From Ignavibacteria bacterium (GTDB lineage Bacteria; Bacteroidota; Ignavibacteria; Kapaibacteriales; UBA2268): 63,905 nt of DNA. Location: NCBI GenBank assembly GCA_012518115.1, contig JAAYTD010000032.1, positions 1 through 63,905 on the forward strand, given 5' to 3'. A program made the translations under genes and the position numbers. Below, one piece after another: positions 48,674 through 55,942 of the stretch (positions are counted from its first letter, which is position 1; each line of letters opens with the position of its first letter). The notes under the pieces were generated by a model. The model worked only from the letters and a program-made list of their open reading frames with translations, had not been told where the DNA came from and searched no databases.

Positions 48674-48713
48674 AAAAAAACACGACATTTTTATTAGAAT
48701 GTCGTGTTTTTTT
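48674..48713. terminator. Bidirectional terminator
   Basis: Perfect 16-bp stem, 48674-48689 with 48698-48713, core CACGACATT/AATGTCGTG flanked by A and T runs, 8-nt loop; between convergent LCP and lysine transaminase genes. Confidence 0.93.
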
Positions 48714-55343: not shown

Positions 55344-55376
55344 GTCGCATATAGTTTTTATAAAATTATATGCGAC
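55344..55376 (+). terminator. Probable terminator after nuoL
   Basis: Ten-bp stem GTCGCATATA (55344-55353) with TATATGCGAC (55367-55376), 13-nt loop; only a mild T-rich tail. An ATG at 55370 falls in the right arm, so it is not the start of the next gene. Confidence 0.6.
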
Positions 55377-55393
55377 TTAATTTTAATAGGGAA

Positions 55394-55738
55394 ATGAAGA
55401 ATATGGAATTAGCAAAAAATGAAAATAACTTTTACGCTGAAATTGGTGATTTGCTCAAACAGGCAAGAAATAGTGCTTATAAAGCTGTGAATACACTGTT
55501 GGTACAAACTTATTGGCAAATAGGTAAGCGCATTGTAGAACAAGAGATGCAAGGAAAGAGTAAGGCAAATTATGGTGATTATCTCATTACAAACTTGTCA
55601 AGGCATTTAACTGATACATTTGGAAAAGGATTTTCGGAAGCTAATTTATGGAATATGAGACAGTTTTATCAAACATTTCCTGAATTTGAGCAATTCTCTA
55701 CGCACTGCGTAGAGAATCTAAGTTGGACAAATTTGTGA
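55394..55738 (+). pseudogene. DUF1016 (YhcG-like) gene, truncated after the N-terminal domain
   Basis: 114 codons from the ATG at 55394. KQARNSAYKAVNTLLVQTYWQIGKRIVEQEMQGKSKANYGDYLIT (shown for position) and LSRHLTDTFGKGFSEANLWNMRQFYQTFP are the DUF1016 N-terminal domain. The intact family has a C-terminal PD-(D/E)xK nuclease domain reached through LSWTHYRLL; here the frame stops at LSWTNL just before repeat copy C. Upstream of that, FSTHCVEN is encoded by a perfect 25-bp palindrome. The gene is most likely a remnant; the family is linked to mobile or defence-related loci. Confidence 0.78.
55693..55717. repeat. Perfect 25-bp palindrome within the DUF1016 remnant
   Basis: 12-bp arms ATTCTCTACGCA and TGCGTAGAGAAT around a single C, in frame, encoding FSTHCVEN. 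Confidence 0.9.
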
Positions 55739-55752
55739 TGTGGTTTTTATTA

Positions 55753-55942
55753 ACTACCCCGTCAGGCTTCGCCTGCCACCCCTTCTGGGAAGGGGAATTT
55801 TAAAATTCTCCTCTTGAGAGGAGTACCTGCGTAGCAGGGGAGGTGTGGTTATTTGGTCGTTGAGTGGAGCCGAAATAACTACCGTCAGGTTTCATCTGCC
55901 ACCCCTTTTGGAAAGGAAAATTTATATAATTCCAAATGGTAT
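55753..55942. repeat. Mosaic palindromic intergenic repeat, copy C
   Basis: Begins with the ACTACCCCGTCA module and hairpins CAGGC-TTC-GCCTG (55763-55775) and CCCCTT/AAGGGG (55779-55795), then a 39-bp stretch identical to 519-557 of copy A (55803-55841), then a GTTATTT...AAATAAC pair enclosing GGTCGTTGAGTGGAGCCG, a decayed second ACTACCGTCA module, and the end ATATAATTCCAAATGGTAT (55924-55942), 18 of 19 identical to A 707-725. Lies between the DUF1016 remnant and mtgA. Confidence 0.75.

Follow-up and report, generated by a model that had tools for sequence, protein, structure and literature searches.

A 27-bp dyad within the coding sequence of DUF1016/YhcG nuclease genes as a likely binding site of the protein that each gene encodes

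The analyzed window comprises 63,905 nucleotides from an Ignavibacteria bacterium (GenBank assembly GCA_012518115.1, contig JAAYTD010000032.1). At positions 55370-55738, on the forward strand, it contains a truncated open reading frame of 122 amino acids which matches the DUF1016_N profile of the YhcG family (PF17761, E-value of 1.8e-32, profile positions 1-96 of 137). Translation probably starts at the ATG at 55403, judging from the intact homologous gene L033, which shares 90% amino acid identity with the window frame across 111 residues. Inside this frame, positions 55693-55717 read ATTCTCTACGCA-C-TGCGTAGAGAAT, a 25-bp palindrome with two perfect arms of 12 bp around a single central base at 55705. 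The in-frame codons of the palindrome yield FSTHCVEN and are followed by LSWTNL (55718-55735, forward strand) and a stop codon at 55736-55738. Comparison with LSWTNIRQIM in L033 indicates that the counterpart of ParB helix alpha-6 begins with LSWTNL. The earlier note's description of a perfect in-frame palindrome ahead of LSW, within the N-terminal region of a DUF1016 gene, is borne out by the sequence and the PF17761 match. Upstream, the codons of FSEANLWNMRQFY (55631-55669, forward strand) specify the presumed counterpart of the ParB recognition helix alpha-4, based on the AlphaFold2 helix 87-99 and on the hhalign register given below. Among homologues, residues 86-92 of this segment co-vary with the palindrome, as seen from both odds ratios and the sister-pair combinations 88/+7 and 92/+5 (residue positions follow the numbering of the homologue L047 throughout).

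The protein encoded by L033 continues through LSWTNIRQIM into the nuclease domain, while the window frame ends six residues past the palindrome. With Pfam profiles, the C-terminal PD-(D/E)XK domain (PF06250) was detected in L047, L033 and YhcG of E. coli K-12; in the window frame it was not found, and PF17761 alone matched. Because the frame ends after LSWTNL, where the intact L033 runs into its nuclease, the gene in the window is a remnant, dead but with its site retained, and this copy of the palindrome is a relic. The break at LSWTNL removes residues 115-117 of the code described below together with the entire nuclease; since the reader of the window gene has been cut off, its site may now be inert. 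Directly behind the truncated gene, and adjoining the break, positions 55745-55930 hold inverted repeats (ACCCCGTCAGGCTTCGCCTGCCACCCCTTC...) of a REP-like dispersed element, for which 61 matches were counted in the same genome, including the gene's own place and the palindrome.

Taken by itself, the window palindrome is only moderately unlikely to have arisen by chance. It ranks fourth among the longest perfect inverted repeats of the window (loop of at most 20), and an arm of at least 12 occurred in one of six simulated windows generated with a second-order Markov model. No perfect inverted repeat in the window is longer than the one at 48674-48713 (16-bp arms, 8-nt loop, runs of A and T), which looks like a bidirectional terminator.

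Palindromic DNA that is read in frame has been described for the palindromic elements of Rickettsia (PMC4316617), and the earlier note raised the possibility of a comparable element here, with FSTHCVEN as a possible insertion. Such an element would agree with the in-frame position, the length-variable loop and the occurrence of tandem copies. However, a search of the own genome (2.48 Mb) with up to three mismatches allowed returned the palindrome at one place, on the basis of which a dispersed element was rejected. Moreover, nearly all homologues from many phyla possess a palindrome of unrelated sequence at the same place, and FSTHCVEN is therefore no private insertion. Homologues with conserved residues but no palindrome at this position were looked for; what was found instead were palindromes of other sequence encoding other residues, or a closely similar palindrome in a different frame. 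While the Rickettsia elements are dispersed and 100-150 nt long, the DUF1016 dyad measures 27 bp and occupies one place in one gene family. An inserted selfish element of this type is thus improbable in the extreme.

For the family-wide comparison, DUF1016 genes were obtained from a genome collection, from genomes of the same phylum and of other phyla, from viral contigs, and from plasmid, phage and E. coli records. Inverted repeats were scored with +1 for each match and -2 for each mismatch, and the best one between the anchors MRQFY and LSW was retained. The first scan covered 163 genes with both anchors (from 186 distinct genes) and the final set 255 such genes (from 280 aligned; 289 genes). 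Tandem copies were analyzed in 210 of 229 aligned genes, whereas mismatches, odds ratios, distant pairs and code tables were derived from the 175 genes whose frames comprised 280 amino acids or more.

An inverted repeat with a score of at least 6 was present between the two anchors in 239 of the 255 genes, and 210 reached at least 8; in the remaining 16 genes the site was weak or absent (score below 6). A score of at least 6 was reached in 129 of 134 genes of the own phylum, 43 of 48 from Pseudomonadota, 28 of 33 from other phyla and their genomes, 30 of 31 from viral contigs, all 8 from plasmid and phage records, and yhcG of E. coli K-12 (1/1). This repeat was also the top one of the entire gene in 138 of 163 cases in the first scan and in 214 of 255 in the final set. 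By comparison, equally sized control windows taken from the 3' portion of the genes reached a score of at least 8 in 19 of 1409 cases (first scan).

When codons were redrawn synonymously in 210 genes, the mean site score fell from the observed 10.07 to 4.44; for 195 of these genes, no more than 5 in 100 redraws reached the observed score, and for 151 none did. The palindrome is therefore not a by-product of the protein sequence. Chance, which the window alone leaves only moderately unlikely as an explanation, was rejected on the basis of these family-wide redraws. Complementarity across the dyad amounts to 0.74-0.97 at offsets 1-13 and drops to 0.35 at offset 14 and 0.26 at offset 15, where 0.26 is expected (239 genes). 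Since the symmetry stops abruptly past offset 13, the site measures 27 bp. The window copy accordingly spans 55692-55718 with its center at 55705, perfect over 55693-55717 and mismatched in the outermost pair; its half-site reads T-GCGTA-GAG-AAT from the center outward.

Among the main sites, the 5-mers of the right half-site come in 57 different forms. The dyad center coincides with the first base of a codon in 200 of 210 genes, while in the subfamily of the window gene the center has moved by one base, whereby closely similar DNA codes for FSTHCVEN in the window gene and L033 and for ILYSVRREL in L042. As the site sequence varies by gene and this subfamily uses another reading frame, it is the DNA and not the protein that is conserved here. 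In nearly all DUF1016 genes examined, a 27-bp dyad thus occupies a fixed place, independent of the protein sequence.

Two or three sites were present in 34 of 210 genes, mostly spaced by 36-42 nt, and in most of these genes the copies have a common core with differing flanks. The yhcG gene of E. coli K-12 contains three sites, all of the form CAGAC-RNY-GTCTG, and other E. coli alleles contain one or two. The related genes L052 and L058 have in common a second palindrome, TCTCCGCTTTGCGGAGA, which lies 38 nt upstream of the main site in a different frame.

Another explanation would be that the palindrome acts as a hairpin in mRNA or single-stranded DNA, for example in translation control, mRNA processing or recognition of single-stranded DNA. 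The arms, which reach up to 16 bp, would indeed fold strongly, and the flanks of tandem copies remain palindromic even though they differ. The mismatched pairs in 192 sites, however, lack a wobble bias (22 G-T, 30 A-C and 46 other pairs), the pair adjacent to the center, which cannot form in any hairpin, is complementary in 74%, and an Rfam search gave no match. Furthermore, the bases of the site co-vary with residues of the DNA-reading helices, as fits double-stranded DNA. The selection for a hairpin considered in the earlier note hence agrees poorly with the data, and we judge a role as hairpin to be very unlikely.

To place the palindrome in the protein, an AlphaFold2 model of L047 was used, in which helices at residues 62-80, 87-99, 112-119, 124-136 and 141-149 were predicted with good confidence; the palindrome codes for the turn at approximately residues 100-111. 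Residues 40-155 of the model match the DNA-binding domains of ParB, Noc and Spo0J, which occupy the top 11 rows with Z-scores of 8.4-10.1 over 94-103 residues at 2.4-3.4 Å (for 7nfu, Z of 10.1 and 3.0 Å over 99 residues), while residues 196-324 match PD-(D/E)XK nucleases. The predicted fold of DUF1016_N is thus that of the domain with which ParB and Noc bind parS-type sites. The sequence kinship is weak: hhalign aligned the family to ParB with a probability of 17.5% (P of 0.0014), the HTH_ParB profile reached 16.3 bits at residues 107-149 of L047 (E-value of 0.011), below its cut-off of 22.6, and among solved structures a sequence search for relatives returned 3zi5 as the sole match, with an E-value of 0.54. 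Pfam gave no match to the ParB CTPase domain in L047, L265 or L033. The hhalign register is nonetheless sensible: FSxxNLWNMRQFY coincides with the recognition helix of ParB, LTWSHYKAL with LTMGHARAL, and WSTRALDRQI with LSVRQTERLM. ParB reads parS through its recognition helix alpha-4, which inserts into the major groove, with additional contacts from alpha-6 and alpha-8 (PMC7383237).

Co-variation between residues and site was measured in 412 gene pairs with at least 60% identity outside the site, by comparing residue differences with core differences at equal overall identity. High odds ratios were obtained for residues 113 (14), 115 (13.5), 116 (6.8) and 117 (18.6) and, up to 8.3, for residues 85-92, in contrast to values near 1 at the neighboring positions 114 and 118-121; the odds ratio of 10.5 at position 45 depends on few, rare changes. 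Across the 175 genes, specific residues accompany specific bases. S113 occurs with T at +3 in 51 of 70 genes and never with A, T113 with C or A in 54 of 63 and never with T, and G113 with G in 23 of 23. Likewise, R116 occurs with G at +4 in 43 of 46 genes, K116 with G or A in 15 of 16, and L, V, I or C at 116 with T or C in all 95. At +5, T accompanies Y92 in 49 of 51 genes and Q92 in 10 of 10, whereas G or A accompanies R92 in 41 of 41.

Comparison of 85 disjoint sister pairs (2493 tests) gave the strongest associations for 88/+7 (P of 2e-9), 113/+3 (3e-8) and 141/+3 (5e-7), followed by 116/+3 (2e-6) and 92/+5 (7e-6). When residue 116 was classed as basic or not and the base at +4 as purine or pyrimidine, 11 of 13 changes in residue class were accompanied by a change at +4 (P of 4e-10); among all genes, a basic residue 116 coincides with a purine in 58 of 62 cases and any other residue with a pyrimidine in 109 of 110, with 3 genes in neither class. 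The rules were fixed from the contingency tables of the 175 genes, a training set rich in Bacteroidota, before any held-out gene was inspected. Six of the 51 new genes lacked an anchor; 40 of the other 45 scored at least 6, and 22 of these 40 shared no more than 80% identity with any training gene. In these 22 genes, the rules were right in 51 of 52 applications, compared with 27.1 expected from base frequencies and 44 in the best of 20,000 permutations. The dyad is tied by a transferable code to the DNA-facing residues of the protein itself. The longer, second DUF1016 gene of the own genome (L266, G000:C39:11200-13600) contains the palindrome AAATTGGCAACAAGTTGTTGCCAATTT with the core TGTTG and fits the code with G113, L116 and Y92; its protein also has a similar repeated motif, WQQVVANL and WQQAVANL.

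Among distant pairs (20-50% identity), columns 56, 65 and 82, which lie outside the DNA-facing helices, rank above 113, and subfamily history therefore confounds this test. A mutational origin was also considered, in which template switching perfects chance palindromes and local gene conversion links nearby residues to them. The palindromic flanks do vary freely between tandem copies, and pairs with differing cores show a slight, broad increase in synonymous divergence, namely 0.49-0.51 compared with 0.40-0.43 over residues 88-135 outside the site and 0.43-0.46 compared with 0.42-0.44 over residues 190-320. As this rise is merely mild and broad, a short conversion tract does not account for the co-variation, and local gene conversion was rejected as its source. 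In addition, a mutational process would leave without reason the fixed place and the 27-bp edge of the site, the column-specific code, the pairing of R or K with purine, and the copies in promoters; such an artefact is highly improbable.

The reading we favor, and consider likely, is that each of these proteins binds the palindrome in its own gene: since the DNA-reading helices change in step with the palindrome, each protein seems built to bind the gene that encodes it. In DUF1016/YhcG proteins, a helix-turn-helix domain of predicted ParB/Noc type (DUF1016_N) is combined with a PD-(D/E)XK nuclease domain, and the 27-bp dyad is formed by the codons of the turn that connects the recognition helix (FSxxNLxxMRQFY) to the DNA-facing helix after it (LSWSHYxxL). 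Reading of the dyad in the major groove would involve two copies of the domain, like ParB on parS. Each gene has its own half-site, with reader and target changing jointly (116/+4, 113/+3, 92/+5 and 88/+7). In the model, we take the co-varying residues 85-92, 113-117 and 141 to fall on the counterparts of ParB alpha-4, alpha-6 and alpha-8. Binding, dimer formation and major-groove reading are what we infer from these patterns.

With ParB/Noc/Spo0J and their parS or NBS sites, the family has in common the predicted DNA-binding fold and a palindromic site, presumably read by the same elements alpha-4, alpha-6 and alpha-8. One B. subtilis parS lies inside spo0J. Unlike DUF1016, ParB and Noc possess CTPase and dimerization domains in place of a nuclease domain, and parS is nearly invariant, whereas DUF1016 has dozens of half-sites, located in nearly every gene in the codons of the reader's own turn. 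A second known case is PurR, which binds the intragenic operator purRO2 in its own coding sequence and thereby holds down its gene. The proposed DUF1016 regulator would likewise bind its own coding sequence, and as in an intragenic operator the site lies within the gene and appears specific to the gene's own protein, a specificity read solely from co-variation. PurR/purRO2, however, is one case of fixed sequence outside the codons of a DNA-binding turn, with no co-evolving site across phyla. The specificity of ParB and Noc can be changed through a few residues (PMC7383237), a likeness to the small number of co-varying residues in DUF1016. For the YhcG family (COG4804; PF17761 and PF06250), a PD-(D/E)XK nuclease with a helical N-terminal domain of unknown fold has been described, and the family description names no palindrome, DNA site or ParB likeness (PMC1189080). 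Searches of the open literature listed no paper linking DUF1016/YhcG to ParB or to a palindrome in its own gene, and none that contains both DUF1016 and ParB. The parts, i.e., a ParB-like domain, a nuclease and an intragenic operator, are known, while their arrangement was not found in that literature.

If self-recognition holds, protein and target would be linked in a novel manner, in which the codons of the DNA-reading turn are themselves the DNA that is read. With its more than 50 half-sites that change along with the reading residues, the pattern would constitute a natural data set for a protein-DNA code, and would offer a first handle on the function of a nuclease family present in many phyla and listed as a phage-defence candidate. 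E. coli K-12 yhcG with its three sites allows a direct test.

Regarding the purpose of such binding, autoregulation, in which the bound protein holds down its own gene, would be the likeliest and simplest, while nuclease action directed at the own gene would be the boldest. A search beyond the main segment for further exact copies of each gene's own core gave 13 in the gene or within about 215 nt of it (0.32 expected) and none in 384 kb farther out (0.85 expected), which points to cis action on the own gene. Because the site lies in the coding sequence, an autoregulatory block would move along with a mobile gene. Counting against autoregulation, exact upstream copies (within 155 nt) were present in merely 4 of 210 genes, at -17 (L099), -46, -148 and -155; overall, we give this purpose slightly less than an even chance. 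In E. coli K-12, one of the 13 copies belongs to a long non-coding palindrome with the yhcG core, AATTCTGCAGACAGTGTCTGCAGAATC, situated about 24 nt behind the yhcG frame and before nanQ (L265, 4965-5000).

Alternatively, the palindrome could be bound in order to act on DNA carrying the own gene, for copy control, for exclusion of incoming relatives, or for cutting that drives gene conversion or duplication. Several observations are consistent with this. The site is nearly private to the gene, and models of the PADLOC phage-defence candidate PDC-S02 matched all four homologues tested (L047 with E-values down to 3.4e-148). DUF1016 genes often reside on plasmids or prophages, or beside integrases, restriction genes or hsdM/hsdS. 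A genome contains up to 14 DUF1016 matches, and E. coli alleles have one to three copies of the site, the third of which is interrupted by breaks in some alleles. An E. coli yhcG deletion has been reported as synthetic lethal with dnaB, dnaN and parE hypomorphs (PMC2672614). Autoregulation, too, has to accommodate the defence assignment, the mobile surroundings, the copy numbers and this lethality, along with the phage resistance described for 59.0% of the 39 carriers in a panel of 100 P. aeruginosa strains (PMC10855318).

On the other hand, a gene with an intact site would be exposed to cutting by its own product, and no self-protection was found. The breaks in E. coli yhcG are linked to IS elements: in alleles L356 (4001-4406) and L357 (3985-4189), the break falls within the third palindrome or at its edge, and it is followed by a transposase frame in L356 and preceded by IS1 in L357. 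The palindromes may be insertion targets. In viral contigs, 13 stretches matched two 19-mers, none of them in a DUF1016 frame and several terminator-like; a 23-mer matched two stretches, both in DUF1016 genes on contigs already in the set. Since the phage contigs with 19-mer matches lacked the gene in the stretch examined, no target class was seen. In 14 genomes that have a CAGAC-type gene, a search for CAGACRNYGTCTG gave 31 sites, and in 14 genomes with other types it gave 2. By coordinates, 20 of these 31 sites are in the gene, 1 is just upstream and 10 are elsewhere (7 of them in G218); the 20 in-gene sites follow from the choice of genomes, so no clear target set emerges.

A reprogrammable DUF1016/YhcG nuclease family whose members act only on DNA holding their own gene seems rather doubtful. 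If it did exist, about 120 bp would hold both the reader helices and the target, the private address would move with the gene, and one exchange could switch specificity while keeping the match. The targets would then be rival copies, related mobile elements or, as a check on copy number or replication, the own replicon.

Paralogues within one genome have a core in common in 2 of 92 pairs, compared with 5.2% between genomes, which is only suggestive. The Bacteroidota genomes G235, G327, G337 and G260, of one genus (g93), have 13-14 DUF1016 matches each, and the cores mostly differ among those examined. N-terminal DUF1016 fragments seemingly often end near the palindrome, as judged by eye and confounded by long loops. 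On a plasmid of Deinococcus aquaticus (L307), a DUF1016 gene is flanked by a DNA methyltransferase gene and a gene for restriction subunit S; the gene ends overlap, as though DUF1016 had taken the position of the restriction subunit.
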